Shown here piece after piece: positions 11,961 to 36,525 of a stretch of 64,000 nt of DNA. Below the pieces are notes generated by a model. The model saw only the letters and a list, made by a program, of their open reading frames with translations. It was not told the origin of the DNA and searched no databases. The translations under genes were made by a program, and so were the position numbers. The stretch's first letter is position 1, and each line of letters opens with the position of its first letter. This DNA comes from Pseudoalteromonas piscicida (GTDB lineage: Bacteria; Pseudomonadota; Gammaproteobacteria; Enterobacterales; Alteromonadaceae): NCBI RefSeq assembly GCF_000238315.3, contig NZ_CP011925.1, positions 1,054,001 through 1,118,000 of the forward strand. Reading direction: 5' to 3'.

Positions 11961-12154
11961 GGTAAGTCCGATATTGGTTATTATATATAGTAGTATATGT
12001 GTACATAGAATTTGTGTATACAATAATCATGAATACTCATCAGGTATGTTAATGCAATTGCTTTATCTAAACTGAATTTTTTGACAAAACCATTTGTTAA
12101 ATGTAGGTTTATATTTTATCAAAGGTTAATGTCTGTATTTTTATTGTAATTAAA

Positions 12155-13624
12155 ATGAAAAGAACGTCTTTTGCCTGTGTTTATGCTACTGTCGTCACCG
12201 ACAATACTGGCCAGAATACCCGAGTCCCCATTATCATCACCGAGCATGGGGATATTCCTTCTGTTACAGAATACATATTGATGCGCTCTTCACAAGGTTA
12301 TAGTAAATCCTCTATGGACTTATCTATTAATGCCATAAGAATGTTCTTAACATACATTAATGCTAACGCTTGTTTTAACACGAAACCTACAATTTTACTT
12401 ACATCATTTGCATCTCGGCTTTGTTCAGGAACAATCAATGCCGAAGGTTTGGATCCATCAGAGTTATTTTGGCTACCAAGATCTCAAATTAGTACAAGAA
12501 GAATTACAAATTCACTAAGAGCTTTCTTTCTTTGGCTAACACAGAATGGAGAAGGTTTTAAACAGTCTACCAATATCATTAATAGCTCCTATGGAAGCAC
12601 GCTATCGTATGCAGCATGGTATTGGAAGAATATACATGACTACCTTGGACATATTAAAAGTGATAAACGACGCACATTGAGGGAAGCCCCATTACACCTA
12701 ACATCTAAGAAAATTCCGTATTATGCAACTGATGCTGTTGATTTTCCGCAAAAAGACTTCCATAGATTTCTCATAGACGGGTTTGGTAAAGCACGGGATA
12801 TCAGAGTTGCATTGAGAGACATGCTTATATTGCTATTAATGCATGGTGGAGGGTTAAGAGAAAGCGAGGCCCTTTCACTTTGGGTTACAGATGTCGATTA
12901 TCCGCAAGATTCCTCATCTCCGCTAAGAGTAAGGGTGTACGACGAGGAATATGGGAAAGCACCATTTGGCTGGAAATCGACACAAGGACTAAAAACACGA
13001 CAAGCTTATTTGATGTATAACTTCGGTCGAGTTACAAGAAAGAAAAGCTCTGGGACTCAGCATATTGGGTGGAAGGGGTCAAAGTTCGACCATAAAGACG
13101 GCTACATTGAGGTATACTGGTTTCCGAATTACTATGGCCAGTTGTTTAAAAAATTATGGAATACTTACATGAAATATAGGAGTTTGCTAGATTGCAACCA
13201 TCCCTACGCTTTCATTACTTTTCATAAAAAGAAAACTGGACATCCCTACACAATAAATGCATTCCATCAAAGCTATAAATCTGCATTGAAAAGAATATCG
13301 CTGAAACCTAATAAAGAACTTGGCTTAAGTCCACATAGCCATAGACATAGTTATGCACGGAGATTAGTCAAAGCTAAAGTAGCGCCAACTGTCATAAAGA
13401 AATGCCTCCATCACAGCTCTTTAGAGTCACAAATACCGTATACGGTTTGTAGCTTTAGTGAAATATCAAGTGCCTTATCTGTTGCAACTAAAGAGCTAGA
13501 GCATGAACAAAATAATATTTATCTCCCAGAAACATGGCAGGATTTAATAAAACATGGATACGAAGATATAGATCCGAAAGCTTACTTTACTGGCTTACAC
13601 CCCAAATTTAAAAGTTCGTTATGA
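12155..13624 (+). CDS. gmtY: GMT tyrosine recombinase GmtY
   Basis: A 489-residue tyrosine recombinase and first gene of the mobility trio. The C-terminal catalytic residues are visible: Arg235 in GGGLRESEAL, the HxxR box at His394-Arg397 (PHSHRHSYARR), a histidine in CLHHSS and Tyr429 in IPYTVCSF. The N-terminal half is a core-binding domain. The stop overlaps the next start (ATGA), so translation is probably coupled. The name rests on the trio architecture and sizes (489, 863, 224 residues), which match my recollection of the GMT family. A profile search would confirm it. Confidence 0.8.
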   Translation: MKRTSFACVYATVVTDNTGQNTRVPIIITEHGDIPSVTEYILMRSSQGYSKSSMDLSINAIRMFLTYINANACFNTKPTILLTSFASRLCSGTINAEGLDPSELFWLPRSQISTRRITNSLRAFFLWLTQNGEGFKQSTNIINSSYGSTLSYAAWYWKNIHDYLGHIKSDKRRTLREAPLHLTSKKIPYYATDAVDFPQKDFHRFLIDGFGKARDIRVALRDMLILLLMHGGGLRESEALSLWVTDVDYPQDSSSPLRVRVYDEEYGKAPFGWKSTQGLKTRQAYLMYNFGRVTRKKSSGTQHIGWKGSKFDHKDGYIEVYWFPNYYGQLFKKLWNTYMKYRSLLDCNHPYAFITFHKKKTGHPYTINAFHQSYKSALKRISLKPNKELGLSPHSHRHSYARRLVKAKVAPTVIKKCLHHSSLESQIPYTVCSFSEISSALSVATKELEHEQNNIYLPETWQDLIKHGYEDIDPKAYFTGLHPKFKSSL

Positions 13625-16212
13625 AAAAACAGAAAAATAGCCGATATCTTGACATACAGTTTAGTTGGATGACCAAAAAGCTTGGTGCACAATGGTCGGA
13701 TTGGCAGAAATATGCCGCGTCTTGGTTTGCGCTTCAAACACGTGCATTGGATCCTAAAAGAATTGCAATTTCATTCTTTGTGGAACATTACTTGTCACAA
13801 TGTGCACCATACGCATTTCACTTACCTCATTTCTTTCTAGGGAGTAATGGTCACATAAGCAGTTCAGAAGAGCTTGTAGACTTAATGAAAAAGCGAGGAA
13901 TTGAAGACCTTAATGAGCAATCTAGACGACCGAACTATATATGTGACTTTATCGACTACATTATTGAAATCAACTTCAGCACCATAAATAACAGTGGAAT
14001 AAAAACACCGAATGTGGTTAATCCATTCAGAAAAGTCAAAGTAAAATCCAATACAACAGAAACGGTAAGATCACCATTGCCCTTTAAATATATACTAGAG
14101 CTCAGAGAGATATTATGTCCATCAATTAAATATGAGGATAAAGCATCAACAATAGGTAGACATTTCAATGATTGGCGCTGGTATCAGAAGCTAACAGGCA
14201 AGAGAATATCCTCAGGAAGGTCTGGTGATTGGTTTGAAGTTGATGAGGAGCTTGTTGATAAAACTGATCCTGATTGCGTTTGGCGAGAGGTAACAAAATC
14301 AGTAGGCAATCGGAAGGTCAAAGTTTATCAGATATGGTCGCCTGTTAGAGCGCTGATATTGTTTATCAAATTGCACCTCCCGCTTAGGGCATACCAAATC
14401 AAAATGTTAGACTCAGGGGAAGCTGACACCTTTCGTTATGAATCGGGTAATTGGATTTTGAATGAAAACCATGATTTCGCACGAGGTAATGAAAAGAAGC
14501 CTTTCTCAAAAGGTGTTTTCAAAAAAATGTTCGATCGGATTACAAACTCCCACTCGACTGGGCTATACATTAACACCAACAAAACAACCGATCAGCATGT
14601 TTACTCACAAGATATTGGGTATACAATTCCATGGCAAAATGAAGAAGTTTTGTACTGGCTCGAAAAGTTAAGAAATTGGCAAGAAAAATACAATAAAATA
14701 CAGTGTCCAACAAATTGTAAATCACTTCATAAGAAGCATACCGAGTCGAGCAAATCAAAAGAACAGCTGGATGCAATGGGAAGTATCTGCTTTCTATTTA
14801 GAGATGCTTCAGGTATAGGTGATGATCGAATCAAGCCGATAGACTTACACTCATTAAAACGTCCTTGGTATGCTCTTTTGCTTCATCTCGAAAATATTAT
14901 ATATTCCCGAGGAGAAACTTTAGAGAATGGTTCACGACTGAGACTTGTTCATGATTATTCATCAACAACGAATAAGGGGGCTACGACACTATTCCCTATC
15001 CATAGCTTACGAGTAGGGCTAATAACAGCCTATTGTTTAGATTCTCAACTACCCATACCTGTTGTTTCGAAACTGTTAGCAGGGCATTCTCGCATCATGA
15101 CTACAATATATTATAACAAGCTCACTCCTAGTGTTATGGCAAAGAAAATGAGCGATGCAGAATCGGAGCTTGTAGAGCATTCAAGTGAATCACTACGTCA
15201 CTTTTTAAATGACGCTTCCGAAAGCCAAGTAATGAGACAAGTCGCGTATAACGATGAAAGTGGTTTGCTGAATACTATCTCCAATAGGCTACCTATAGCA
15301 TGGGAAAGTAAAGCATATGGTGTGTGCTTGGCTGGAGGTTCTTCAAGTAAAACTGACGAGATCAGTACTCTCGCAGGTTGTTGGAATGGTGGTGAACTGA
15401 TCATAGATAAAGAAAGAGCAGCCAGTAGAGTATATGGAAGTGTACCGAACGGGCCTGAAAATTGTGTAAGATGCCGGTGGTTTGTAACAGACGTAAGATA
15501 TTTAAATCAACTAAATGGTCTATTTAATCAACGAAGTTATTTAGCTCACGAATCAGCTAAACTAGCTGCTCAAATAGAAATAGAGCTTGAAGATTTGAAA
15601 GATGAACGGTACTTTGCAGAGCTAGAGGATAAACCTTTCCTAAAAATTGAAAAATTTAAGGAGTTACAGAGAAGGTATGAGAAACAAAAAGTTGAATCAG
15701 ATGAATTTACGAAGGACTGGATAGCTTGTTTTAATCTAATCAAGCGAATTATGGAAATAGAAGAAAAAAGAGCTTTTGGGGACCACAAAGGTAAAATTGT
15801 TGCTGTAGGAGATAAAAGTGACATTATCCCTAGGCTTAAATTTATTGAAACAAATTCAGAGCTATTTCAATTGTCACTTTTATGTGAAGATGCTGAATTT
15901 TATCCCGACTTAAGAGATACTTTATCCAAGACTCCTGTACTTCAAAAACGCTCAATGTCACTTTGTAAGGCACTTGTAAAAAGTGGTTCAATGCCAGTGT
16001 TTTTGGAAATGGATGAAAAGCAGCAGCTGTTAGTAGGGAATGCCTTAATGCGCGAAATGGCGAAAGCTTTAGTCCCAAATGACAAAGTCGCAGGTTTTAA
16101 AATAGTTGCTGATTATCTGGAAGCTGAGCGGTATTTACTAGATGCGAAGTTGCTTAAACGTGGTATTAAAATTTATAATCACGCTTCAATCAGCTTTAAA
16201 GACATTTCGTAG
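13621..16212 (+). CDS. gmtZ: GMT integrase-like protein GmtZ
   Basis: The 863-residue second trio protein. Its centre has a degenerate tyrosine recombinase catalytic region: an HxxR box at His461-Arg464 (PIHSLRVGL), His489 in LLAGHSR and a Tyr pair at 497-498 (TTIYYNK). After that comes a C-terminal half that ordinary integrases lack. It contains a Cys-rich patch (CVRCRWFVTD near residue 620) and a charged, probably coiled-coil segment rich in Lys/Glu. It overlaps gmtY by four bases. The presence of two recombinase-fold proteins in one operon is the hallmark of this kind of element. Confidence 0.8.
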   Translation: MKKQKNSRYLDIQFSWMTKKLGAQWSDWQKYAASWFALQTRALDPKRIAISFFVEHYLSQCAPYAFHLPHFFLGSNGHISSSEELVDLMKKRGIEDLNEQSRRPNYICDFIDYIIEINFSTINNSGIKTPNVVNPFRKVKVKSNTTETVRSPLPFKYILELREILCPSIKYEDKASTIGRHFNDWRWYQKLTGKRISSGRSGDWFEVDEELVDKTDPDCVWREVTKSVGNRKVKVYQIWSPVRALILFIKLHLPLRAYQIKMLDSGEADTFRYESGNWILNENHDFARGNEKKPFSKGVFKKMFDRITNSHSTGLYINTNKTTDQHVYSQDIGYTIPWQNEEVLYWLEKLRNWQEKYNKIQCPTNCKSLHKKHTESSKSKEQLDAMGSICFLFRDASGIGDDRIKPIDLHSLKRPWYALLLHLENIIYSRGETLENGSRLRLVHDYSSTTNKGATTLFPIHSLRVGLITAYCLDSQLPIPVVSKLLAGHSRIMTTIYYNKLTPSVMAKKMSDAESELVEHSSESLRHFLNDASESQVMRQVAYNDESGLLNTISNRLPIAWESKAYGVCLAGGSSSKTDEISTLAGCWNGGELIIDKERAASRVYGSVPNGPENCVRCRWFVTDVRYLNQLNGLFNQRSYLAHESAKLAAQIEIELEDLKDERYFAELEDKPFLKIEKFKELQRRYEKQKVESDEFTKDWIACFNLIKRIMEIEEKRAFGDHKGKIVAVGDKSDIIPRLKFIETNSELFQLSLLCEDAEFYPDLRDTLSKTPVLQKRSMSLCKALVKSGSMPVFLEMDEKQQLLVGNALMREMAKALVPNDKVAGFKIVADYLEAERYLLDAKLLKRGIKIYNHASISFKDIS

Positions 16213-16224
16213 GGAGTCAATCGT

Positions 16225-16899
16225 ATGACTGACATAGCCAGATTACTAACAATGCTAAAGGAAGGAAAGTCTATCAGAACGAAGAAAAGTTTGGATACTT
16301 TGAATCAAATACTGGAAGGCTATTCTCATTCAGAACAACCAAACTACTCTATTACCAACATAGGAAAGCTTTCCCAAATAAAAGGTGGTCCGAGCTATGA
16401 GACCATTCGGGCGACGCGGAACAAACATTATCGTGAGCTGATAGATGCATGGGCAACAAATGCCCCACATAACAGGCCCCCCAAAAATGCTATTAATCAT
16501 ACTTCTCTACCCACCGATTACGAGCTATTAGAAAAATTGAGAGACCCCGCTTTAAGAGTTCCATTCGGTCAGGTATTGGCTGAAAGAAATAGATTTAGGC
16601 AAGAGCTAAAAATACTAAAAAGCCAAGCTAATATCGTGATTGATAAAAGACATAAAGCATTTAACGACGATAACTCTATTGAACATGTTTTATTTAGCGA
16701 TGAAAAATCTTCTGAATTAACTCAGCCTGAAGAAAGTGCTTTACGCTATGCTATTTCTGAACGTTGTTGTGAAGATAACAATTGGCAATTTACTAGGGCA
16801 GGTCAAGTAAAAGAACTAGAGTTTGATACCGAAATTTTCCCAAGGGGTTTCGTAAGTGGGTTGGCAAAACTACTTAGTTTTGTGGACCAAAGCAAGTAG
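16225..16899 (+). CDS. gmtX: GMT accessory protein GmtX
   Basis: The 224-residue third trio protein, 12 bases downstream of gmtZ. It contains a possible helix-turn-helix near residues 40-65 (SITNIGKLSQIKGGPSYETI) and a central helical stretch around residues 120-145. A DNA-binding accessory role in transposition is inferred. The role of GmtX is not evident from motifs. The gene ends the mobility operon, and the cargo begins 228 bases later. Confidence 0.75.
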   Translation: MTDIARLLTMLKEGKSIRTKKSLDTLNQILEGYSHSEQPNYSITNIGKLSQIKGGPSYETIRATRNKHYRELIDAWATNAPHNRPPKNAINHTSLPTDYELLEKLRDPALRVPFGQVLAERNRFRQELKILKSQANIVIDKRHKAFNDDNSIEHVLFSDEKSSELTQPEESALRYAISERCCEDNNWQFTRAGQVKELEFDTEIFPRGFVSGLAKLLSFVDQSK

Positions 16900-17127
16900 C
16901 TTTACATTACTCAGGTTAAACAGGACACTTTCCAATAGAAATTTTTATAATCGCTTGGTAACATATCATTATTATATTAAACCAGTCCATGTTGCAATAT
17001 CGTATTTATGCTACTGTATCCCAAAAATGAAATTGGTATAGTGGTCAAAAGTAGTTGACGACTACAAGGTATTATGTAACTGTCTATAACTTGTTAAAAA
17101 TGTAATTTATAGTAAAAGGAAACATTT

Positions 17128-17307
17128 ATGAAAACGATAAAACGGAAGAAACCAGAAAGTGTAGACAAAACAATTGAAGAGCTCAGCATTGATGATTTTC
17201 GATTAGCGCAAGTTGCAGGTGCGGGTGTTAACACTGAAAGGAATACAGAACACAATAACAATGAAAGAAATGGCAGCGGAAATGGTGATTCTTTTTCTCA
17301 TGTCTAA
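17128..17307 (+). CDS. Putative ribosomally made precursor peptide (RiPP-like)
   Basis: A 59-residue ORF starting at ATG 17128 with AAAGGA upstream. The first half is a basic then acidic helix-prone leader. It includes ELSIDDFRLAQV (residues 18-29) followed by AGAG (30-33), which resembles the ELSxxELxxVxGG leaders of bacteriocins. The tail (residues 34-59) is polar and Asn-rich. It holds three E-[R/H]-N motifs at 37-39, 41-43 and 46-48, then a Gly/Ser/Asn stretch and a final FSHV. There is no Cys and few hydrophobic residues. The ORF is followed by a terminator-like hairpin and three oxygenase genes. That layout supports a modified peptide, but the function is inferred. Confidence 0.65.
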   Translation: MKTIKRKKPESVDKTIEELSIDDFRLAQVAGAGVNTERNTEHNNNERNGSGNGDSFSHV

Positions 17308-17329
17308 TGATGGATAATCTATAGCATTT

Positions 17330-17367
17330 AAGAAAGAAATAACTAGCACTGTTATTTCTTTCTTTTT
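17330..17367 (+). terminator. Terminator/attenuator between precursor and enzyme genes
   Basis: AAGAAAGAAATAAC pairs perfectly with GTTATTTCTTTCTT around TAGCACT, followed by TTT. A partial terminator here would give far more precursor mRNA than enzyme mRNA, a common arrangement in peptide clusters. The downstream ribosome site AGGGAG is just beyond it. Confidence 0.7.
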
Positions 17368-17387
17368 AACTCAGGGAGATAGAGTCT

Positions 17388-18560
17388 ATGGGATTTGATG
17401 ATCTAATCGCCCCAGTAGATGCAAAAGAGTTCTTTGAAAATTTTTACGAAAGGCAATGGGTACATATCGAGGGTGTTAACCCATTTCAAGATGTTTTTAC
17501 TCTCGGTGACTTTGAGACGTATTTATTTTCTTCACGTCCCTGGGAAATGAGGGATGCATGGACTCAATCTGGCATGCTTGCTGCCAAATATCCTAATGGG
17601 GCTCACTATACAAACATTTCGTCAGTAGAAGAAGCTTTAGAGCTATATGCACTTGGGCATACTATAGTTCTTCCACTTGCAAACTACAGATGGCCTAGGT
17701 TATCAGAGATATGCGGCCTTATTTCAGATCAGCTCGATGTTAGGGCTAATGCAAATATTTATCTCACACCACCTAACAGTAAGGGATTTACCGCTCATTA
17801 CGATATGCATGATGTACTCCTTCTTCAGACGGAAGGTGCCAAAAAATGGGTAGTTAGTAAGTGTGACAAAGTGCACCTTACTCTAACAGAAGATATTACT
17901 AGGCCAGAGTTTTATACTATTGACCCTGAAAAAGATCTTGTAAATACAAAGACTCTTGAATTGAAGAGAGGACAAGTTCTGTATATGCCCAGAGGAACCA
18001 TCCACAAAGGTGAAGCTGTTGGTGATAGACCCTCTATACATATTACTTTCAATATATTACCTACCACTTGGTACAACCTAATTGAAACAGTCCCTCAACT
18101 TAGCACTCAAAAGAATCATGGAGAATCAAGTCATGTTACTTTTGACGATTTGTGCGATTTAAGCGCTCCAAGAGTACGGAAAAAAATGGAGATCTTTATC
18201 AACAAACCACTATTAAACGCAGAGTGTATCAAAGATAGAATATTTAAAAGAAAAAATGAAATAGCACCGGGAAAAAGCTTCCAGTCTGTAAATCAAATCC
18301 AAAATATATCTGCAAAGACAACCCTTGCTAGGAAGCCAAATGCGAAATTTTTTATATTTGATGACAAAATAGACCCTTGGGTTAGCTATGGTGGAAGGAA
18401 AATCAAAGTTCCTGCACATTTTATTGAGGCAACAAAAAAAACTATAAACAAAAAGAAGTATACAGTTCAAGATATTGATGGCCTAAAAGTTGAAGAAGAA
18501 AAGCTCTTGTTTGCGCAATGGCTTATAAAAAAAGGCTTCGCAGTAATCAAAGAATTATAA
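17388..18560 (+). CDS. JmjC/cupin-fold 2-oxoglutarate oxygenase, copy 1
   Basis: A 390-residue protein of the YcfD/RoxA-MINA53-NO66 type (cupin_4). These enzymes use Fe2+ and 2-oxoglutarate to hydroxylate Arg or His side chains in protein substrates. The iron triad is His137 and Asp139 in TAHYDMHDV and His206 in MPRGTIHKGEA. The N-terminal substrate-binding part starts FFENFYERQWVHI, and the C-terminus has a winged-helix-like tail (about residues 310-390). The next two genes are paralogs with the same layout. The proposed substrate is the peptide encoded just upstream. That link is inferred. Confidence 0.85.
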   Translation: MGFDDLIAPVDAKEFFENFYERQWVHIEGVNPFQDVFTLGDFETYLFSSRPWEMRDAWTQSGMLAAKYPNGAHYTNISSVEEALELYALGHTIVLPLANYRWPRLSEICGLISDQLDVRANANIYLTPPNSKGFTAHYDMHDVLLLQTEGAKKWVVSKCDKVHLTLTEDITRPEFYTIDPEKDLVNTKTLELKRGQVLYMPRGTIHKGEAVGDRPSIHITFNILPTTWYNLIETVPQLSTQKNHGESSHVTFDDLCDLSAPRVRKKMEIFINKPLLNAECIKDRIFKRKNEIAPGKSFQSVNQIQNISAKTTLARKPNAKFFIFDDKIDPWVSYGGRKIKVPAHFIEATKKTINKKKYTVQDIDGLKVEEEKLLFAQWLIKKGFAVIKEL

Positions 18561-18572
18561 AGGAGTATTAAA

Positions 18573-19748
18573 ATGAAAGGGCTAGAAAAGCTAGTGGCAC
18601 CGTTTAGTGTTGAAGAATTTTATAATGAATTCTATGAAAAGCGTTGGCATCACTTTGACCAAAAGAAACCTGAATACGAAGGTTTCTTCGATTTCGATGA
18701 TTTAGAGGAGTATTTATTTGTCGCTAGGCCTTGGGCAACAAAAAGTAACGAACTGCGTTGTGTAAAATATCCTGGAACAAGCTTTGAGCCAGAAATTTCT
18801 TCATTTGAAGAGCTGCTCGAATTATACGCAGATGGTCATACTATTGTTTTGAACTCTGTCCACAAAAGGTGGCCTGTTATTGCGAAAGTTTGCTCCGAAT
18901 TGAGCAATCAGTTTTTCTGCAGAGTAAATGCAAACATCTACGTGACGCCTCCAGGAAATAAAGGATTTGAAGCTCATTATGACACTCATGATGTAATCAT
19001 TTTACAGACTGAGGGTAGTAAAGAGTGGTTTTTATCTGAGCATGAACGGCTTCAAATAACTCATATTAACGATGATTTAAGAAATGAGTTTTACGAAATA
19101 GATGCGGAAAAAGACACTAAAAACTCAGTTTCTATTCAACTGGATGCAGGTCAGTGCCTTTATGTACCTCGTGGCACTATTCACAGCGCAGAGGCAAATA
19201 ATTCGTTACCATCTATCCACATAACTTTCTCAATCTTCCCTGTTACTTGGGCAAGCTTAATGCGAGCAGTAATTCTTGATGGATCTTTAAAAGATACTGA
19301 GTTGATGAAGACTGTACCGTTTGAGGTTTTAGAAGACTTATCTAGTGCTACTGCTCATGCCAAAATTAACGAGATGCTTAAAAAGGCAATTTCACTAGCC
19401 GACTTTGAATCTACTTGGAGGTTTCTTTATGAAAGAGATATTTCATTGCAGCCTGGCGGTGGAATAGATTCAATTTTACGATTGAAGAATTTAAATACCC
19501 AATCTTTGGTAAAGATTAGGGGCGGGGCTGAAATATTCGTAGATGTCCATAAAGACAAGTGCTGGGTCAGCTTTAGTGGTAGAAGGCTTCGTGCGCCACT
19601 TCAGAGTCTAGATTATCTCTATTACATTTCTGAAAATTATACGTTCACAGTCGATGAGCTCCCAGATGTTCATGGTGACAAAAAGTCTAAATTAGCCTTT
19701 GTTGAATGGTTAATCCGTAAGGGGTGGCTACATTTTGCGGAAAAGTAA
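18573..19748 (+). CDS. JmjC/cupin-fold 2-oxoglutarate oxygenase, copy 2
   Basis: A 391-residue paralog of the preceding gene, 12 bases downstream with an AAGGAG ribosome site. The iron triad is intact: His135 and Asp137 (EAHYDTHDV), His204 (VPRGTIHSAEA). The 2-oxoglutarate-side motif LQTEGSKEWFL follows the HxD. It differs enough from copy 1 outside the active site to suggest a different target residue rather than a recent duplication. It is likely cotranscribed with its neighbours. Confidence 0.85.
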   Translation: MKGLEKLVAPFSVEEFYNEFYEKRWHHFDQKKPEYEGFFDFDDLEEYLFVARPWATKSNELRCVKYPGTSFEPEISSFEELLELYADGHTIVLNSVHKRWPVIAKVCSELSNQFFCRVNANIYVTPPGNKGFEAHYDTHDVIILQTEGSKEWFLSEHERLQITHINDDLRNEFYEIDAEKDTKNSVSIQLDAGQCLYVPRGTIHSAEANNSLPSIHITFSIFPVTWASLMRAVILDGSLKDTELMKTVPFEVLEDLSSATAHAKINEMLKKAISLADFESTWRFLYERDISLQPGGGIDSILRLKNLNTQSLVKIRGGAEIFVDVHKDKCWVSFSGRRLRAPLQSLDYLYYISENYTFTVDELPDVHGDKKSKLAFVEWLIRKGWLHFAEK

Positions 19749-19749
19749 A

Positions 19750-20862
19750 ATGATGAACTCAGAAGGATTTTTCGGGCTTCTCAATGAAGATGACTTTTGG
19801 CTTAAGGTATATGAGAAAGAAATTCATCATTTCACTCACGAGGATAATGATATATGTGACCTTTTTAGCTCTAGTGATTTTGAGGACTACTTATTTAAAT
19901 CTAGAGCTTGGGAGATTGAGGAGCCGTGGAAGCATGCAGGTGTGATTGTAGTTAACGCTTCTAAGCGTGAATATCAAATAAAGCCGCAGTCGCTAGAGCA
20001 AATACTTGAGTTATTTGCTGATGGTTATACCGTTGTCTTGCCAAGAGCACAAATCAGAAATACCAGACTAAAAAAATTTGTTTCCGATCTATCAAAATAT
20101 TTCCACTGTAGAGTGGACGCAAATATATATGTAACGCCGCCTAAGTCTCAGGGTTTTAAAGTGCATCTAGATATGCATGATGTATTTATTTTGCAGACAG
20201 AAGGGGAGAAAGAGTGGATTTTATCTAAAAAACGACCGGTAAAAATAACTTCCAATGATGAAAAGTTTCGGGTTTTCCTAGAAAGTTTTGATGAAAAAAA
20301 AGATTTTATAAATACGGAAAAAGTTACCCTTACATCAGGGCGAAAGTTATACTTACCAAGAGGTGTATATCACTGTGGGAATTCAACCGATAAAGTTTCA
20401 ATACACATTTCAGTTACTTTATTTCCACTTCAGTGGGTTGGGTTTTTAAGTGATCAATTCTCAAATGATTTAAGTCACTCTATAAACAAAGAGGCTTTCA
20501 AGAACTTTTTTAACAAAGAGCTAACTAGTGTAGATGTGTGCCTTACTAATTTTTTGAAGCCAATTATTAATTTCAGCAATGTAGTTAAGCCACAAGGCGC
20601 ATTTTCGGCCCTTGATTATTTTGGAAGCTCACATTTCTATAAATTAAAAGGAAGTATTCGTTTCAAAGCTTACCAATATGGAGGCGTAAATATTCTGACT
20701 GTTGATGGAAGAAACTATACTATAAAAAAAAATTTGTTAGAAGAAATAATTAAAGTGAGTGATGAGCAAGAATTATCAATGGATAGTTTACACTTGACAA
20801 CTAATCAACTTCATCTAGATATCGCCATTTTTTTAACAAAAAAAGGCTTAATAACCATCTAA
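19750..20862 (+). CDS. JmjC/cupin-fold 2-oxoglutarate oxygenase, copy 3
   Basis: A third paralog of 370 residues. I chose the ATG at 19750 (MMNSEGFFGLL) rather than an in-frame TTG at 19735, because it lines up with the starts of the two other copies and has GGAAAAG just upstream. It starts directly after the copy 2 stop, so translation is probably coupled. The triad is His139 and Asp141 (KVHLDMHDVF) and His208 (LPRGVYHCGNS). This copy is the most divergent: the usual GTIH reads GVYH. It is followed by about 215 bases without a gene. Confidence 0.85.
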   Translation: MMNSEGFFGLLNEDDFWLKVYEKEIHHFTHEDNDICDLFSSSDFEDYLFKSRAWEIEEPWKHAGVIVVNASKREYQIKPQSLEQILELFADGYTVVLPRAQIRNTRLKKFVSDLSKYFHCRVDANIYVTPPKSQGFKVHLDMHDVFILQTEGEKEWILSKKRPVKITSNDEKFRVFLESFDEKKDFINTEKVTLTSGRKLYLPRGVYHCGNSTDKVSIHISVTLFPLQWVGFLSDQFSNDLSHSINKEAFKNFFNKELTSVDVCLTNFLKPIINFSNVVKPQGAFSALDYFGSSHFYKLKGSIRFKAYQYGGVNILTVDGRNYTIKKNLLEEIIKVSDEQELSMDSLHLTTNQLHLDIAIFLTKKGLITI

Positions 20863-21077
20863 AGTATGTCTTAATTTTTGGGTATTAAGATACTGTTTCG
20901 AGCATATGCTACTTCAAACAAGTAAAACAACAGATGATAATCTTGCATTTAAGCAAGCACCGACATAAACACTAGGATAATAAATGTGTTTTTTGCCCAT
21001 AAGATAGCCCAAATAAAATTAGTTTATTGAGCCATTGACCTAGGTAAAGTTATGGCTGATAAGAGGGAACTGAGAGT

Positions 21078-23741
21078 ATGAAAAGCATTATTAAGTTAGC
21101 GATTACAATCACCATGTACTTTTGTAATAGCAATTATGGATTGGCACTTACCGAAGAGAAATTGATAGAGTTAAGCAATGGAGTTGAGGTTCTTTTATTA
21201 CATTCTCCTAACTCGAGTAAATCAGCGGCCTCATTAATTGTGAAGGCTGGTTCATATGACGATCCAAAAAATATTCAAGGACTTGCCCATCTACTCGAGC
21301 ACTCGGTTTTACTCGGTAGTAATAGTTACAAAGAGATTGGTAGTTACAATAAATATTATAAATCCAAGCAAGGCTGGTCTAACGGCTCTACCAGAGGGGA
21401 CAATACGCGTTACCACTTTCAAATGCTAAGTTCTTCTTTCAGTGAAGGCGTGAACAGATTGGCAGATGCTATCTCCAACCCTTTATTAAATAGTGAAATT
21501 ATTTCAAAAGCGGTTCTTGAAGTTGATTCAGAGTTTCAAGGAAAAATTAATGATGAGTGGAGAGGAACATTAGAGATCGTCCGAGAGCAAATGCATCCGA
21601 GACATCCTTCTTCACAGTTTGATGTTGGAAACAAGCTTATATTTGATTCTGTTGGTGACTCTTTGTACGGCGAGCTAAGAAAGTTTCACGAGACTCATTA
21701 TGTTGGTAGCAATATCAAAGTAGTGCTGTATTCGAATTTATCTTTGGTGGAGCTTGAAAAAATCGCTGTAAAAGAGTTCAGTGCAATCCCTCGAGGTGAG
21801 GAAAATAAACACCAAGAGAACCAGTTGGTTTGGCAGAAACTCGGCAATAACGTTGTAGAAATTAAGTCCAATGGGAGTGCCAAATCTTTAGACATCATGT
21901 TTCCGTTCCCTTCGAAATATTATGGTGAAGATGATGGCACACTTGTCTTTTTACTCAACTATTTGGGAGCGGAAACAAGAGGCTCTTTGTATAATCGCCT
22001 ATCTGAAATGGGGTATATTACTTCACTAAATGTAAATATGATAGGGGATTCTCATTTTGGTATTTTGGACCTGTATTTTAAACTTACGCCTCTCGGCGTA
22101 AAGCATATCAATCGAATCATTATTGAGTTGCACTCCTATATTGACGCATTGTCATTGAGCGAAGAAGCAAATAGGTATTACGGAGAGTTAGAGTACAAAA
22201 GTAAAATTGAGTCACTAGCAGCTGCTAAATCTGAACCTGGTGATTGGATCTCAGATATCAATGAGAGAATGTTTAGATTGCCTAACACTGCTTGGATAGA
22301 TCCCTCTACATTATTTGCGGATGAAGGCTTAAATAAGGCAAGTTTGGATAGTTTTGTTCATTTTCTTAGCCCAGATAAAATGCTAATTGTTAAAGCTGAC
22401 TCTGACACACAAAACGTGACCATAATTCCGACTTATTATCGCCTACCTTACAAGTTAAGGAGTATTAGTCTCAACAATGCAAAGTATTCAAGTAACAGCC
22501 ATTATCAGATCCCTTCAAGAAATCCTTTCATTGTGTTGGGGAACCGCAAGCAGAAGCATAACTCAAGTACAAATCAAGAGCTAATTCAGCTGAAAGAAGA
22601 TGGAGTTAATGTTTGGATAGATAATAGGCCGCATTATGCTAACCCAAGTGCTTATGCGATGATTTTTATCAATCAGCCAAATTTACCAAAGAACATGCAG
22701 AATTTTGTGAATAGACTGATTCATTCACGAGAATTGCGGTTTCAATTATCTGATTTTACACATTTTGCGAAGCAAGCAGGGTATTCCTTCAATATAGAGG
22801 CTGGGCAAAATGGTTATGTTTTGTCTATTGCAGGCGAGCCTGAAGAATTTGAGATGATTTTAACTGCCGTATTTAAAGAAATGTTTGCCGAAAAAACAAC
22901 AAAGCGTGACTTCACAATTGCTGTGGAAGAGTCAAAGTCGAGCATAAATCGTGTCCTTCAAGGGCAGCTTCAAAGACGAGTCAGAACAGCGGTTTCCTCG
23001 AATATTAATAATGGTTACATAATAGACAAAGAAGCGCTTTTATATTTAAACGATATTGAAATGGGTGACTTTGAGAAATGGAAACGCCAAACTCTTCAAG
23101 CCCAAAGCATTGACGCTGTCTTTACAGGTCACTTTGATCATAAAAGACTTTTTACTCAAATTAAAAGCTGGGTACCGAGCAACATCTTTAAGAAGCAGAA
23201 GCTGCAGAAAAAAATCAGAAACAAGGTTATAATAAGTGACTATGAAGATGGTTATGTGAGTTTTGGGATCGACCTATCCGAAGATGTTGGATTTTTGTAT
23301 CTGTTGGATAGTTTCATGAGCCAAGCGTTTTACCAAACAATTCGATCTAAACAAGGAATTGGCTATTTTGTAGACTCAAGAGTAGTCAAATCAAATGGTA
23401 AGGCTTTCTTGGTGCTTTCGGTCCAGTCAAACAAACACTCAGCTGAATTTTTAGAAAGTGAAATATTCCGCTTTTTAGCGGGGTACAAGAAGCAAATAGT
23501 GCAGTTTACAAATGATGAGTATAAAGAGCAGGTAGCTTCACTAGTAGAAGCCCTAAAAATTCTCTCTCCGTCTATCGTGGACTATACTAGGAGTAAGGTT
23601 GATCAGCTTTTATACAAGTTACCATCTAAAAAGGAGCGAATTCAAAGGATAGAGGAGATTGATCAACATGAATTTATAGCGTGCTACGATGAGATGATTT
23701 CTACCCTTAACGAACACTCCTTCACAATTAGAATCAATTAG
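21078..23741 (+). CDS. Secreted M16 (pitrilysin/insulinase-type) zinc protease
   Basis: An 887-residue peptidase with an N-terminal signal peptide (hydrophobic to about residue 23, SNYGLA then LTEEKL). It has the inverted zinc motif HLLEH at 71-75. Glu152 lies 77 residues after the second histidine, as in pitrilysin, so the site is complete. M16 enzymes cut short peptides inside a closed chamber, and relatives such as PqqF act in peptide-derived cofactor maturation. Its position at the end of the oxygenase cluster suggests leader removal or peptide processing in the periplasm. It could equally be an unrelated cargo gene. Confidence 0.85.
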   Translation: MKSIIKLAITITMYFCNSNYGLALTEEKLIELSNGVEVLLLHSPNSSKSAASLIVKAGSYDDPKNIQGLAHLLEHSVLLGSNSYKEIGSYNKYYKSKQGWSNGSTRGDNTRYHFQMLSSSFSEGVNRLADAISNPLLNSEIISKAVLEVDSEFQGKINDEWRGTLEIVREQMHPRHPSSQFDVGNKLIFDSVGDSLYGELRKFHETHYVGSNIKVVLYSNLSLVELEKIAVKEFSAIPRGEENKHQENQLVWQKLGNNVVEIKSNGSAKSLDIMFPFPSKYYGEDDGTLVFLLNYLGAETRGSLYNRLSEMGYITSLNVNMIGDSHFGILDLYFKLTPLGVKHINRIIIELHSYIDALSLSEEANRYYGELEYKSKIESLAAAKSEPGDWISDINERMFRLPNTAWIDPSTLFADEGLNKASLDSFVHFLSPDKMLIVKADSDTQNVTIIPTYYRLPYKLRSISLNNAKYSSNSHYQIPSRNPFIVLGNRKQKHNSSTNQELIQLKEDGVNVWIDNRPHYANPSAYAMIFINQPNLPKNMQNFVNRLIHSRELRFQLSDFTHFAKQAGYSFNIEAGQNGYVLSIAGEPEEFEMILTAVFKEMFAEKTTKRDFTIAVEESKSSINRVLQGQLQRRVRTAVSSNINNGYIIDKEALLYLNDIEMGDFEKWKRQTLQAQSIDAVFTGHFDHKRLFTQIKSWVPSNIFKKQKLQKKIRNKVIISDYEDGYVSFGIDLSEDVGFLYLLDSFMSQAFYQTIRSKQGIGYFVDSRVVKSNGKAFLVLSVQSNKHSAEFLESEIFRFLAGYKKQIVQFTNDEYKEQVASLVEALKILSPSIVDYTRSKVDQLLYKLPSKKERIQRIEEIDQHEFIACYDEMISTLNEHSFTIRIN

Positions 23742-24452
23742 TGTTATTAGTGGCCAACTATTTCAGAGGTTTGTAAGCGTCCGCTTTAGCATAACACTCC
23801 ATGCTAAAACAAAATACAGCCTAGATGTAAATGAAGTTATCGTGTTACAAGAGAGCGTTTCTATTCGATTAGAAAAAGTATGTTAAAGCCTTGAGCTTTT
23901 GTTAAGCAGCTTTTTTACGCATCAAATACTCATAGTTAAACATGCACTTAATTAACTGATGCAGTCGATGCATTTCACGGTATGAGATGAGTATTTTTCT
24001 CATAAAATCAATGAAGTACATTGACTCCGCTTTCTCTTGCTTTATACCTTCTTTCTTAGGGGAGTAAGTAATAACTTGAGAAGTATCATCATACTCCGCT
24101 TTGACGTGCGCAATTGAGTTGCGGAGCTGGTTATTAATTGCACCTTCACCAATTTTGTACCAACACTCGTCTAAGTGAGTGACTTTAAATCCATACGGTA
24201 GGTCTGCAAATTGGTTGAGCGTCTTCGGCGTTGTCTTGCCAACATCTTTAAACTTATTATGATCTTTACGATAAATAACATTGTTAATTCCTGCGACCAG
24301 AATGAGCTGACGAGACAGAATTTCAGAAATATCTTTGTATAGATCTTTGTACTTTTGAAAGTCATCTGTAGACACCCTAAAAGCCACCAACTCTTTATCG
24401 TAATCGGAGTCAAAGTCCAGAAACAATGCAGGTCTAAATGCTAATGTAGTGG

Positions 24453-25633
<1,181 letters not shown>

Positions 25634-25883
25634 TTTTTCACCCAAATTTGTATGCAAATAGCATAACATTTCTTTCTTAATGGGTGGCCAAATTAACTAT
25701 GCCACTACACTTATTGGTTGAACATCTCTGTTAGACATTCCTATTCTACAATCAACCAAACTTTCACAAGTTGTACATTCGAATCTTTGATTAAAATTCA
25801 TTTTTTCTTACCAAATTACCTAGCTGCTTTTAGCTTGCAACCGCAGTAAATTAAGATCCTAAGTAATTAATTTTTCTGTCTAC

Positions 25884-26924
25884 TTACTCTTGTTTAGCGT
25901 CGCCACGTACGACTGCACTCATTAATTGCCTCAATAAAAGAAAATCGTCCGGTGCAATAACATCCATCATTCCTGTTTCAGGATCTACAAAGTATTGAGC
26001 TACTCGTTCATGATTAAAAGTATTTAAATCCAAAGGATGCTCTGCAAATGGGTTGTGTAAGATATGTAATCCATCTGCAATATCTTCTACATAATCTGAT
26101 TTCATAGAATTACGCATCTCTGGGAAGATACTGCCATCAACAGGTAAATGACTAGTATGATAGATGGTTTGAGCACTTGGATTATCTGCCAAAGCACGAA
26201 TTTTACCCCAAGTAGCTAAAGAACTATAAATTACCGCGCTAACATCTTTGAATTCATCCGTGGTGAAAAGACCTAATGGTATTGTGGCATTTTCATTTTT
26301 TATCACAGCATCGACTGGATATTTAATTAATTCATTAGCACCAGTTGCAATCGTTGTTTCTTCATCAACATATAGCCCATATAAGACTGCGACAATTGCT
26401 CTATTTACAGCATAGTGTGAATAAGGACGATCAAAGGATGCCAAACCAATAACATAGGGTTTACCTTTTACATGTTCCAGTTTGGAGTAACTAGTTCGAT
26501 ATTTTTTTATTTTGGATGAAAGGCTATTGGATATTCGAATTGCTGATTGTTGATTGAAAGTAGAAAAATCCGTTGGCGCAAATTTTTGAGAATGTCCTGC
26601 TGGTGCTTCTCCGCCTTGGGGTGGTGCTGCAATTGTTGCTTCTAGTACAATAGGCCTGTCTAATTCAGTTACAAAATCTGGAGCATACTTAGAAAAGTCT
26701 GTATTAGCACCAAGTTCATTTAAAAATGCGTTAAGATATAATTCCCACATAGATGATTCGAAAGTAGTCTGGAGTTCATACACAAACTTTCCATCTCTAT
26801 CTTCAAAACCTTTAGCCCATGAGTTTAAAACTTCTCGTTCAGGTCCATATTGTTTCTGAAGAATCATTTTAAATATTGGATGTAACTTTTCATCCTCTGC
26901 TATAGGTGTAAATAAATCCATCAT
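25884..26924 (-). CDS. Uncharacterised protein with PD-(D/E)XK-like motif
   Basis: A 346-residue soluble protein. Residues 75-100 contain APDFVTELDRPIVLEATIA. An acidic PD pair followed by a strand with E-x-T is reminiscent of restriction-endonuclease-like nucleases, although the usual lysine is a threonine. Before that comes an acidic helix containing SMWELYLNAFLNELG, another feature of this fold in related uncharacterised proteins. There is no signal peptide or membrane segment. It stands alone between the broken HEPN gene and the prophage, a typical place for a defence gene. I cannot name the family. Confidence 0.55.
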   Translation of the reverse strand: MMDLFTPIAEDEKLHPIFKMILQKQYGPEREVLNSWAKGFEDRDGKFVYELQTTFESSMWELYLNAFLNELGANTDFSKYAPDFVTELDRPIVLEATIAAPPQGGEAPAGHSQKFAPTDFSTFNQQSAIRISNSLSSKIKKYRTSYSKLEHVKGKPYVIGLASFDRPYSHYAVNRAIVAVLYGLYVDEETTIATGANELIKYPVDAVIKNENATIPLGLFTTDEFKDVSAVIYSSLATWGKIRALADNPSAQTIYHTSHLPVDGSIFPEMRNSMKSDYVEDIADGLHILHNPFAEHPLDLNTFNHERVAQYFVDPETGMMDVIAPDDFLLLRQLMSAVVRGDAKQE

Positions 26925-27592
26925 AACCCCACGATATTGATATGCTGCTTAACAGTGTTTTTTCAGCAGAGATTGCCTTTATAATATGTACAGAAAATAC
27001 CGATACCTGTCATTTAACACACTGTTATCACAGACTGAATCCGACAAATTATAAATCATGTCTGTATAACCCCAAATTCACAACTAGACTCATAATCTGT
27101 TATTAGGGAAAGTTGTCAATGCTCTTTGTCTAACTTGGAATGGGGCACAAACGAGTTAGTATCACGGTCTGCTATTGCCCTTATAAAGACGATTATTAGC
27201 TGTTTCTAGCTTTCGGCATAAGCAAAACGAAATCCTACTTTGACCGTTTGATATGGTTTTTTTCTATATTCGAAAGATTGATTCTCACCCCACATTAAAA
27301 TAACCTACCGAGCCGCAGCCAAATCTAGTGGCACATTGTATGTGGATTTTCCAGTTTACCAAACTACAAGAAGAGCAACGTGTAAAGCGACCCTTTATCA
27401 CCAATTCCTTTTTAAGTACAGTTAGACTTAGTTATGTACACAGCCATTAACACGTATGTAAAAAAACTAAGAGTATTAATGCACTTATACTTCAATAAGT
27501 TAGAGCGAATGTACACAAACTAGACTATATACAATGTCTAGTATTGGACATATTATAGTGATGTAGATACCTGTTATGCAATACTGTATAAA
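26925..27592. other. Gene-poor stretch at island/prophage border
   Basis: 668 bases with no convincing gene apart from one very small candidate at 27285-27401. It is strongly AT-rich toward the dif-like site. It probably contains the right edge of the island, but no repeat matching the region upstream of gmtY was seen. Confidence 0.5.
27285..27401 (-). CDS. Possible 38-residue zinc-ribbon-like protein
   Basis: A GTG start at 27401 with AAAGGA upstream opens a 38-residue frame. It contains TRCSSCSLVNW and IQCATRFGCG, a four-cysteine pattern typical of small zinc ribbons. It may be real, a fragment of a larger lost gene, or chance. Confidence 0.3.
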   Translation of the reverse strand: MIKGRFTRCSSCSLVNWKIHIQCATRFGCGSVGYFNVG

Positions 27593-27620: not shown

Positions 27621-28020
27621 AGGTAAGTATGAGACATTTTGGCTTGTTATGGTGCTTGAATAGAAATTTAGTTCGTAAGCCCTATTTTACTAAGTTTCCT
27701 AATTTAGGTTCAGAATCTGTATTTTCGATTAATAACCGAATTTCCAATCTAAAAAATTTATATAAAAGATGTATCTTTCGCGCAGGACGACCGACGCTCT
27801 ACTTCGTCAAAGGAGTCCAAGATGACATTTAATGATTTACTATTTAGAGCTGGATTTATGAATTTCGGAAATATAAACAAGAAAGAAGCTTCAAAGTATC
27901 TTCATGTAACACCTAGAACTTTAAATCGCTGGATTAAGGATGATTGTAGTGGCATAGTTAATTTGGCCACCCATTAAGAAAGAAATGTTATGCTATTTGC
28001 ATACAAATTTGGGTGAAAAA

Positions 28021-29201
<1,181 letters not shown>

Positions 29202-29464
29202 CCACTACAGATAACCCATGTCCTCGTGCTGTAGATTTACTAAAAGTAAGAATTGATGGAATTATGTGCATTCGTGAAGAATGGAAAGACTTCTCTATTG
29301 ATCGTGAATCTAGATTAGTAACTCCTCGCGGTGCAAAATACGACGCTTCATATATCAACAAAATAGACTTTCTTCAAAGAAGCAACCATTTCCATAATCC
29401 CAGTAGTTTTTAGCTTTTATGAATAGGTATAGTAAAGTGGCTCAACGAACCACTTATAGAAGCA

Positions 29465-29800
29465 TCAATTAGAGGAAATAGTGTGCTTGATTTCGATAAG
29501 CCCTAGCTCAGTTATGGATATTACCGCTCTAATCTCACATTCGCGCTTATTTGCAATATCAACTAGCATCTTTTTGAAATAAGTCTTCGCTTTTTTCATT
29601 TCGCTCTCAAAATCATCGCTTTCGATTCTATATTTGGTGGCATAAGCAGTGTCTACACCGTCAATATTTATATAAGAACTGTCAAAATTGAGCTTTTCTC
29701 TTATATCGTCACGAACACCTCTAGAATCTCTTTCATTATTATTTTCAGTATTAACTGAATAAACCAATAGAACATTTGAAGTTTCAATGCTATTACGCAT
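29465..29800 (-). CDS. Uncharacterised prophage accessory protein
   Basis: A 111-residue acidic protein placed after zot at the distal end of the phage operon, where filamentous phages often carry accessory genes. It begins MRNSIETSNVLLVYSVNTE. The start at 29800 is chosen because a beta-strand directly follows; a longer start at 29875 is possible. The pattern of a first strand (NVLLVYSV), a helix, strands and a last strand (CEIRAVISITELGLIEI) suggests a small alpha/beta fold. No known family is recognised. It is more AT-rich than the structural genes. Confidence 0.6.
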   Translation of the reverse strand: MRNSIETSNVLLVYSVNTENNNERDSRGVRDDIREKLNFDSSYINIDGVDTAYATKYRIESDDFESEMKKAKTYFKKMLVDIANKRECEIRAVISITELGLIEIKHTISSN

Positions 29801-29943
29801 AATATTAAGTCTCACTAGTATTAACCCTCTTTGATGAACTTGATTGAGATATGGAGATAAATTTGAATAATACAAGTCATATATACCTAATATTTAATCA
29901 AAGCAGGTTGTGTATGTTGGTGTTTGGTGTCGCCGCGCTGCGC

Positions 29944-31286
29944 TCAGGCTCCGCTTGGCGCGTCGCCACCAAATCCAGCTAAATTAATGGGTTGTTGCTG
30001 TCCTTGTTTGTTTTGTTGCTGGTATTGCTGTTCGGGTATCGGTGGCGGTGTGTCCGTTGGTTTGCAGATAGCATGATACTGAAAGCCTTGGTACTCGATA
30101 CGTGCTAAACACGAGTTAAAGACAACAACCGAATACCCCATTCGGGTCATATCTTTGGAGTTGGCCGAGACTGTCCCGTCTTGTGTTTTGAACTCGATAA
30201 CCACCTCTTTTTCTACCCGCTCACCATCAACCGTGGTGATAATGGCGCTGATGTATGCGCGCTTGGCATCGTATGGCAAACCTATATGAATAGTTGGAGC
30301 AGCAGGAGTCTGAACAGCGTCATTATCAGGAACAGGAGCGCTATCCGCTTGATGACTTTCCAAAGGAACTGGCGCTGCTTGCGGGTTTTCCTCAACATCA
30401 AAAGCACCACCGAAATATAGGCCGAAGTAACCAAGACAAAGAGTGACCACAACCACCGGAAAGGCAAACATAGGACTGAGAAGGAAATTCTTTCCTGTGG
30501 CACTTGTAATAGATTTGGTCGCTGTGGATTTGTAGAGGTCGTGCACTTGGACGGGGATTTTGCGCCATTTTTTGGGTCGGCTTTGTTTGGCGTTTTGCCA
30601 TCCAATTTTGGATTATGTTCATGGATTCGTGGTCTCCGATAGAAATAAGGAATTTTGGCTAGGCCGTCAAAGTATTTGTGCGCGTAGGCGTATTGGCTCA
30701 CATTGCGAATGTATTTATGCACGGACGTAATATCAGGCGTGCAGCAGATAATGTCCCAGTTGTATTTTCGGTGGCGCATGTACGCCTCTTTCAGCGTTTT
30801 GGGGTAGATAATATGTCCGTGTTCGTTAAATATCTCGATACCTAAATCATCGACATCACCACTGGTTAGGTCTGCGGGCTTATAGGTCTCTAGGGTGTCT
30901 AAGTGATATTGATACCAGTCTTCGGGTAGCACTTCTTGGTAGTTTTGAACGGGCTGATAGTCGCACGACTCAGGTTTGAATTGCGTGGTTTCCGTTAGGT
31001 AAATGTCTTGGACTTCATCCATGATGATGAGAGCGCCACATGGCACCCAATGATACCAATTTCGCCAAAGCTTATGCCCTGTGTCACTTTGGCTCGACAT
31101 GCGCCATAGTTTGGCGGTTTCTGGAAAGGTTTCATTGAGTTCCTGCTCGATGTCTTCGATTGGCTTAATGCCCTCAATATTGGTGACAACTAAGCGCCCT
31201 GCTCTCAGCGCTGGCAGTAATTCGAACCACACCGCTGAGGCGGATTTGAAAGAACCAGGCGCACCATGAAATATTGACGTTGCCAT
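29944..31286 (-). CDS. zot: Zonular occludens toxin-like assembly ATPase (pI), frame split
   Basis: Zot/pI powers extrusion of the phage through the inner membrane. The N-terminal part (from ATG 31286) has a Walker A-like loop HGAPGSFKSASAV and a Walker B-like motif ALIIMDEVQD. The expected membrane helix and periplasmic tail (MFAFPVVVVTLCLGYFGLYF, then Pro/Gln-rich to 29944) lie in the -1 frame. The switch point is an A6 run, at 30568-30573 on the plus strand, where frame 1 reads CCA AAA AAT. A shift of -1 on A AAA AAT joins DPK to KWRKIPVQVHDLYK and gives about 447 residues. Without it, a 334-residue form ends at 30282. Confidence 0.8.
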
Positions 31287-31699
31287 TATAAGAACCTCAT
31301 CACATATCGAGTTACAAGCGCTTGAATAACCACATTCAGGGCATCAAAGGCGCGCATATCAACCAATGCGGCTTGGACATCCCTTGGTAGTGCGCTGGCA
31401 GCACTGGCTAAGCGTGAGCCAATCTGGAAGTTGTCTATGATGTTCTTCGAAACCTGCCATGCGAACTTAATCGTCTCTAGCTCAATCTTGAGTTTTAGGA
31501 GCGTGGCATACTCGACAAACCAAGCAAAAAATCGGGTGATAAAATTCGGGATATCACTGTCCCATAAGTCCCAAATATCAGTGATGAAATCATTGATAAA
31601 ATCTAACATCCCTTTTGTTCCCTCATAGTCTTTTGCAATGGCTATTGTGGGGATAAAGAGCAACATCATAATTAGTAGTAATGCGTTTGATTTATTCAT
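31286..31699 (-). CDS. pVI-like minor coat protein (DUF2523)
   Basis: A 137-residue membrane protein between the pIII-like gene and zot, the usual place for pVI. It has an N-terminal hydrophobic segment (LLLIMMLLFIPTIAIA), a Trp-rich amphipathic middle and another hydrophobic stretch near the C-terminus. It overlaps the pIII-like gene by eight bases and touches the zot start, which fits translational coupling. Confidence 0.75.
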   Translation of the reverse strand: MNKSNALLLIMMLLFIPTIAIAKDYEGTKGMLDFINDFITDIWDLWDSDIPNFITRFFAWFVEYATLLKLKIELETIKFAWQVSKNIIDNFQIGSRLASAASALPRDVQAALVDMRAFDALNVVIQALVTRYVMRFL

Positions 31700-33056: not shown

Positions 33057-33071
33057 ATTAACGCCTTTGGT

Positions 33072-33152
33072 TTAGGAGGTACGAACCCCGCTTGTGAAGC
33101 CTTCAACGAAGACCCACACGAGGAACGTACCGAGTAAAACAGTGGTGACCAT
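33072..33152 (-). CDS. Very small hydrophobic phage coat protein (pVII/pIX-like)
   Basis: A 26-residue frame starting MVTTVLLGTFLVWVFVEGF. Its ATG overlaps the stop of the major coat gene (TAATG), which suggests coupled translation. The size, hydrophobicity and place match the pVII/pIX end-cap proteins of filamentous phages. Confidence 0.55.
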   Translation of the reverse strand: MVTTVLLGTFLVWVFVEGFTSGVRTS

Positions 33153-33355
33153 TAACGAGATAATTTGCTAACGATAAAGCCAACACCGAAACCAATGGCG
33201 GCTAAGCTCAATAGACCTACTACAACGAGCGTATAGTTGGTTTGGCCTGTAGAGATGGCAGTAGTAAGCGCCGTGGTTACATCTTCATTTGCAGATGCAG
33301 CCATTGAACCCATAACAGCCGTTGCGCCAAGTGCGATTTTAGATACTAATTTCAT
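33152..33355 (-). CDS. Major coat protein precursor (pVIII-like)
   Basis: A 67-residue precursor with a signal peptide (MKLVSKIALGATAVMGSMAASA), then a mature chain of about 45 residues. The chain has an acidic N-terminus (NEDVTTAL), a hydrophobic core (YTLVVVGLLSLAAIGFGVGF) and a basic C-terminus (VSKLSR), the expected charge layout of a filamentous phage capsid subunit. Confidence 0.85.
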   Translation of the reverse strand: MKLVSKIALGATAVMGSMAASANEDVTTALTTAISTGQTNYTLVVVGLLSLAAIGFGVGFIVSKLSR

Positions 33356-33389
33356 AGTGATTTTCCTTATTTAACATTGAGTGTGTGTT

Positions 33390-33632
33390 TTATGATTTGC
33401 CTATGGTTCGAACGATACGCCCGATACTATGGCCAACGAAAAATGCGGTTAATGCTGCCGCGTTAATTAACCCAAACATGGGTGTATCAAAGGCAAACAG
33501 CTCGTTGAGCGTGTTCACCAATCCGTCAAACTGCAAATGCGTCAGCTGCGCTTGAGTCAGTAACACGTATTCGCACGCGGGTTGTGTGGTAGCGATGAGT
33601 TGCCCTGACTCGGTGATAGTGACGCATTGCAT
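33390..33632 (-). CDS. Small phage membrane/coat protein
   Basis: An 80-residue protein between the ssDNA-binding and major coat genes. It has a Cys pair in its first 20 residues and a C-terminal hydrophobic segment (MFGLINAAALTAFFVGHSIG) ending in basic residues. By position it may be a minor coat protein. It has no cleavable signal and the exact role is not clear. Confidence 0.6.
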   Translation of the reverse strand: MQCVTITESGQLIATTQPACEYVLLTQAQLTHLQFDGLVNTLNELFAFDTPMFGLINAAALTAFFVGHSIGRIVRTIGKS

Positions 33633-33641
33633 GTTAATTCC

Positions 33642-33959: not shown

Positions 33960-33961
33960 GG

Positions 33962-34036: not shown

Positions 34037-34057
34037 GTGAATTCCTTAGGGTTACAG

Positions 34058-36513: not shown

Positions 36514-36525
36514 GGTCAAATTATC

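Follow-up and report, generated by a model that had tools for sequence, protein, structure and literature searches.

Oxygenases of the JmjC fold and their gene neighbours

Ribosome hydroxylation is the main known activity of oxygenases with the ribosomal-oxygenase fold. YcfD/RoxA, MINA53, NO66 and B. subtilis YxbC have the same fold and the same iron ligands as the enzymes described below. Two Bacteroidota loci, from Ohtaekwangia koreensis (L018) and Chryseotalea sanaruensis (L026), each hold three tandem JmjC-type genes together with two peptides named "FlmA family RiPP" by NCBIfam (NF052472); within the order of the first species only 1 of 194 genomes, its own, carries FlmA. A further group of loci (e.g. 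L014, L021, L028, L032 and L045) pairs a related JmjC gene with a repeat-rich short peptide gene directly 5′ of it.

The locus studied here belongs to Pseudoalteromonas piscicida and lies in a stretch of 64,000 nucleotides that was analysed as a whole (the window). Its parts are as follows.

17128..17307, + strand: candidate RiPP precursor, 59 aa (ORF, ribosome-site-like stretch, core repeats)
17330..17367, + strand: hairpin and T run, candidate attenuator, between the precursor and the first oxygenase
17388..18560, + strand: JmjC oxygenase 1 (PF08007 JmjC_2, 2.8e-22)
18573..19748, + strand: JmjC oxygenase 2 (PF08007 JmjC_2, 1.3e-22)
19735..20862, + strand: JmjC oxygenase 3 (PF08007 JmjC_2, 1.2e-22; ATG at 19750 preferred)
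21078..23741, + strand: M16 zinc protease, pitrilysin/PqqF-like (PF00675, PF05193, PF16187, PF22456)

This order of short peptide ORF, hairpin, three JmjC paralogues and M16 protease on one strand had been proposed in a first-pass annotation and is confirmed by the ORFs, the PF08007 and M16 domains and hairpin folding. The same annotation held that no described peptide class goes with three such oxygenases, a claim that does not hold in that form, given the FlmA-family peptides found behind three tandem JmjC genes. Like the window, the FlmA loci have a JmjC triplet adjoining short peptide genes. They differ in that their peptides lie 3′ of the enzymes and bear no resemblance to the 59-aa window peptide, and in that the middle JmjC-type protein lacks the HxD motif that all three window enzymes keep (in L026 its PF08007 match is below cut-off, 19.5 vs 22 bits). 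Moreover, their JmjC sets are separate from the window's in the tree and their loci contain no M16-like ORF. In the paired loci a repeat-rich short peptide gene is likewise found next to a related JmjC, but one JmjC was detected in each, against three in the window, and the cores are Asp-rich (DGTD, TDPD, DSDTG) behind an LTDxDI-type leader, whereas the window peptide has an Asn-rich core and a leader that does not match this type. The locus is most likely a variant of JmjC-associated RiPP cluster carried by a Gamma-Mobile-Trio island.

The cluster is cargo of a mobile island

The following features define the island.

11985..27538, no strand: Gamma-Mobile-Trio island with the whole cluster inside (flank adjacency in relatives, end duplication)
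12155..13624, + strand: GmtY recombinase (NF040693, 459 bits, cut-off 340)
13621..16212, + strand: GmtZ integrase (NF047926, 912 bits, cut-off 600)
16225..16899, + strand: GmtX (NF040692, 198 bits, cut-off 40)
25884-26924, − strand: PD-T7-5 phage-defence homologue (E 6.5e-116)

In three relatives (G045, G034 and G072; loci L143, L144 and L146) the left-hand sequence ending at 11984 directly meets the right-hand sequence that begins at 27539, their alignments overlapping by 6 bases, which places the island at about 11985-27538 (~15.5 kb). It has no counterpart at the same site in any of the 3 relatives. An imperfect TATTAT/TAGTAT duplication marks its two ends, at which no clear terminal inverted repeat was seen. 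GmtX, GmtY and GmtZ, all above the NCBIfam cut-offs, occur together in a defined insertion, the combination that characterizes Gamma-Mobile-Trio islands, and they are the neighbouring mobility module already suspected at this locus. Different from those islands is the cargo, which here includes the oxygenase-peptide cluster. No exporter was seen among the island ORFs.

Two inverted IS3-type copies are present, one inside the island (24453-25669, − strand) and one outside (27985-29201, + strand), judged as a pair because their ORFs agree in length and in the first 50 residues, with the domain scan covering 24453-25283 only. The inner copy abuts a 184-aa ORF (23902-24456) whose match to phrog_13366 is confined to the end of that family. 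A filamentous-phage-like insert, at about 27640-36680, adjoins the island and includes two proteins with PHROGs matches.

30282-31286: Zot-like (assembly-type) protein
34058-36085: replication nicking protein

The insert is absent from the corresponding sites of G045 and G034; in G072 its place is taken by ~20 kb of DNA unlike this window.

Three oxygenases keep their iron ligands

Oxygenases 2 and 3 are 38% and 31% identical to oxygenase 1, respectively. H137, D139 and H206 (oxygenase 1 numbering) are invariant in an alignment of 23 sequences, the three window enzymes among them, and each of these three thereby keeps the iron ligands of the JmjC fold with HxD...H arrangement that marks ribosomal protein oxygenases. 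The structural model of oxygenase 1 (mean pLDDT 83) has the ribosomal-oxygenase fold and is nearest by fold to NO66, MINA53, YcfD and YxbC, and MINA53 was found by the family profile at 2.7e-61. Global TM-scores against these four proteins are only about 0.4-0.65, so that the domain arrangement differs or is uncertain.

The three window oxygenases form one clade (SH-aLRT 100) apart from the L018 and L026 enzymes, which suggests that the triple JmjC sets of the window and of the FlmA loci arose separately. The tree comes from a quick search and has several rows on long branches, win_J3 among them; two YcfD rows on a branch 3.27 long sit among other rows at a weakly supported fork and are thus not a clean outgroup.

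At 1e-20, oxygenase 1 was found in 1 of 108 genomes of the genus, its own, and in 5 of 394 genomes of an order sample, own genome included; with a broader oxygenase profile at 1e-30, 7 of 369 genomes in a class sample were positive, again counting the own genome. Searching genome contigs with a single protein as query gave no oxygenase relatives among 127 pattern matches, and the alignment of all three oxygenases as query gave 107, the best 80 of which were kept. Neither viral contigs (248 pattern matches) nor plasmids yielded a close relative; the 49 plasmid records were all <60% identical, and the 30 listed were at 22-28%.

Short peptides beside the oxygenase relatives

Relatives of the oxygenases often adjoin a short peptide gene, frequently 5′ of the oxygenase, whose product has a Tat-like motif, Asp-rich repeats (DGTD, TDPD, DSDTGAYADP) or a double-glycine leader. 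An automatic test, the criteria of which were set after seeing the loci, found Asp-rich, Tat or DxD-repeat short ORFs in 22 of 41 loci (L011-L047 and L091-L094) vs 1 of 97 control genes taken from those loci. Split by feature, the counts in loci vs control genes are 17 vs 0 for Asp-rich ORFs, 9 vs 1 for Tat and 8 vs 0 for DxD repeats. The other 19 loci have none of the three features, and some of them (e.g. L018, L026 and L028) have a peptide accepted by eye only. In loci L048-L090, by title mostly Acetobacteraceae, the numbers are 1 of 41 vs 0 of 93 controls at 20% Asp and 6 of 41 vs 6 of 93 at 12%. Given this weak linkage and the post hoc criteria, the peptide link holds for part of the family. 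YcfD-type loci are different: an Asp-rich adjacent short ORF is seen in 0 of 30 at 12, 15 or 20% Asp, a comparison made on Asp thresholds alone, without the Tat and DxD-repeat criteria.

Several of the relatives have RiPP-like contexts. One locus (L093) combines two short double-glycine peptides, a radical SAM protein, two JmjC genes and a C39 ABC exporter, and another (L033) has two peptides with double-glycine leaders. In L092 a 51-aa peptide lies 64 bases 5′ of the JmjC gene, followed by a Suc_Fer-like protein and a methyltransferase. Two JmjC genes are accompanied in L091 by a C39 ABC exporter, a kinase-domain protein, a metallophosphoesterase and a tryptophan halogenase, and no peptide was identified at this locus. 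Among ten neighbour peptides scanned, that of L026 alone carries an NCBIfam RiPP name; three further ones have none. The earlier idea of a peptide-modification cluster is thus upheld in so far as relatives often adjoin short peptides with export- or RiPP-type features, some with C39, radical SAM or an NCBIfam RiPP name, but not as regards the M16 protease, which is no conserved part of such loci.

A Suc_Fer-like protein (PF06999) directly 3′ of the JmjC gene was also noticed elsewhere; the domain was found in L014 and L092, and in L016 the assignment is by sequence resemblance only.

The candidate precursor and its hairpin

By gene position, the predicted 59-aa ORF is a candidate for a short encoded precursor adjoining its putative modifying enzymes, as a RiPP cluster should have. 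An AAGGAA ribosome-site-like stretch was read directly from the sequence at this ORF. Its leader, by eye double-glycine-like with a Gly-Ala end, runs to ...LAQVAGA with G as the next residue. The core is Asn-rich, not Asp-rich, and contains the unit N-[TN]-E-[RH]-N three times, with one Asn common to the first two; 0 of 200000 core shuffles reached three repeats, for a pattern that was chosen after seeing the peptide.

No family search returned a match for the peptide (NCBIfam none up to E 1), and the lack of an NF052472 match sets it outside the FlmA family RiPPs. It has no sequence homologue among the short peptides at the relatives' loci, nor is its leader conserved there, as would be expected of a RiPP. 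A conserved short peptide upstream of the oxygenases in relatives had been suggested as a test of the cluster; short peptides do recur, but none is homologous to the 59-aa peptide. Against a leader profile from 21 relatives' leaders the peptide ranks 46th of 195 window ORFs, and its score is equalled or beaten by 2609 of 5000 of its own shuffles. A shared LTDxDI leader was rejected on that rank, obtained with a profile built without the peptide. A loose LTDxDI-type pattern, found in 14 of 41 focal loci vs 4 of 103 control genes, also matches the 59-aa peptide, having been widened to admit it. The oxygenase relatives show no excess of the double-glycine pattern (5 of 41 loci vs 10 of 97 control genes), which is also present in 3 of 195 short window ORFs.

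The hairpin that follows has an A+T-rich 14-bp stem and then a T run (-15.1 kcal/mol). The 51-base piece that contains it gives z -5.05, with 0 of 200 shuffles as good, and the whole 89-base intergenic piece z -2.31, with 3 of 200. The hairpin is missing from the terminator scan, which requires three G-C pairs and reported 7 sites vs 4.3 in shuffles; promoter-like sites are rarer than expected (12 vs 22.5).

A probable hydroxylated peptide

The reading that best explains these data, and that we regard as probable, is that the cluster makes a hydroxylated RiPP. Speaking for it are the kept iron ligands, the peptide linkage of relatives, the RiPP-like contexts, the FlmA triplets, the core repeats and the presence of a C39 exporter in the genome. 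Against it stand a 59-aa peptide without homologue, the misfit with the leader profile, a double glycine that is not enriched, 19 of 41 loci without features, criteria chosen after the loci had been seen, a core rich in Asn and not in Asp, the scarcity of such peptides in L048-L090 and the lack of an exporter in the island.

According to this proposal, the 59-aa ORF would be translated as leader plus core, and the hairpin would keep peptide expression above that of the enzymes. The three Fe(II)/2-oxoglutarate JmjC oxygenases, duplicated in this lineage, would act on the core by hydroxylating side chains, with Asn, Arg or His residues in its three N-x-E-[R/H]-N repeats as the likeliest targets. 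Cleavage after the Gly-Ala of the double-glycine-like leader would follow, and then export of the product, perhaps via a C39 exporter whose gene lies in another part of the genome and which might in principle accept the 59-aa peptide; outside the cytoplasm the product may be trimmed or degraded by the M16 protease. We infer that it probably has an antibacterial or signalling function and that the island carries it as cargo.

A protease or an exporter would be expected in a RiPP cluster; here the M16 is present, though not conserved, and the C39 exporter is elsewhere. The one C39 match in the own genome is the exporter of another, LanB/LanC-like cluster. That region (C1, L129 1559-9782) encodes LanB/LanC-like proteins recognised by eye, a 62-aa ORF, the C39 ABC exporter and an HlyD-like protein.

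The M16 protease as a possible partner

A stricter form of the same reading, its odds overlapping with those above, joins peptide, three oxygenases and M16 in one pathway in which the protease matures the peptide. M16-type proteases take part in certain RiPP and PQQ pathways, and the one found here lies on the same strand and in the same island, with an HxxEH motif (HLLEH at residue 71, Glu downstream) and an N terminus that looks signal-like by eye. It starts 215 bases past the end of oxygenase 3, a gap that speaks against a shared pathway, as does the lack of any M16-like ORF of at least 100 aa in 135 other loci, including the short, overlapping and YcfD-type ones. Its scores are below the NCBIfam equivalog cut-offs for pitrilysin and PqqF (235 vs 765 and 181 vs 320 bits, respectively). 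In the genus, 2 of 108 genomes have it at 1e-60, own genome included; the best relative (G079, 39% identity) comes from a genome in which no JmjC match reaches 1e-20, and its neighbourhood is, by eye, not RiPP-like. Own genome alone passes 1e-100 in the order sample (1 of 394, with at most two candidates scored per genome), and plasmids gave distant matches only, 27 records all <60% identical, the 20 listed at 21-25%. A single pathway including the protease is doubtful. The M16 was rejected as a core component, not being a conserved partner at the loci of oxygenase relatives; we treat it as accessory, its link to the cluster being putative.

Possible other substrates for the oxygenases

The enzymes might instead be of the ribosomal-oxygenase type and hydroxylate host or phage proteins (e.g. 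ribosomal ones) for defence or regulation, with the 59-aa ORF as an attenuator leader peptide only. Their sequence and fold are indeed nearest to NO66/MINA53/YcfD, the hairpin lies directly 3′ of the 59-aa ORF and the same island has the PD-T7-5 defence homologue. We consider this improbable, however: besides the three oxygenases, the own genome encodes one of YcfD type (C1:1358087), some distant relatives are peptide-linked whereas none of the 30 YcfD-type loci has an Asp-rich neighbour, and three lineage-specific copies with three peptide repeats better fit a peptide substrate. That the 59-aa ORF is not a gene, and the oxygenases act on a small molecule or another peptide, would agree with its lack of homologues and family matches but is likewise improbable in view of the ribosome-site-like stretch, the internal amino-acid repeats and a position directly 5′ of the oxygenases that is shared with L092 and many relatives.

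Implications and related peptides

Returning to the hydroxylated RiPP, the collected loci suggest a related oxygenase branch tailoring small peptides in Pseudomonadota, Bacteroidota, Actinomycetota, Chloroflexota and Acidobacteriota, and the cluster presents such a candidate pathway as cargo of a mobile island, beside a defence gene. It would be one case within a scattered, little-named set of peptides tailored by oxygenases, its own peptide probably being hydroxylated, and offers a compact, testable system of one peptide, three enzymes and three repeats. Going further, one may imagine a mobile-island RiPP class in which the three duplicated JmjC enzymes each serve one N-x-E-[R/H]-N repeat, within a superfamily, spread over several phyla and for the most part unnamed, of repeat-rich exported peptides that JmjC enzymes tailor; we put this forward as a speculation that is unlikely to hold in full.

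Repetitive peptides adjoining JmjC genes, many of them Asp-rich, were also seen in L028, L031, L032, L034, L039, L044, L045, L047 and L051, which span several phyla. They have a similar L[TSN]D-D-I-type leader and possibly constitute an unnamed peptide family.
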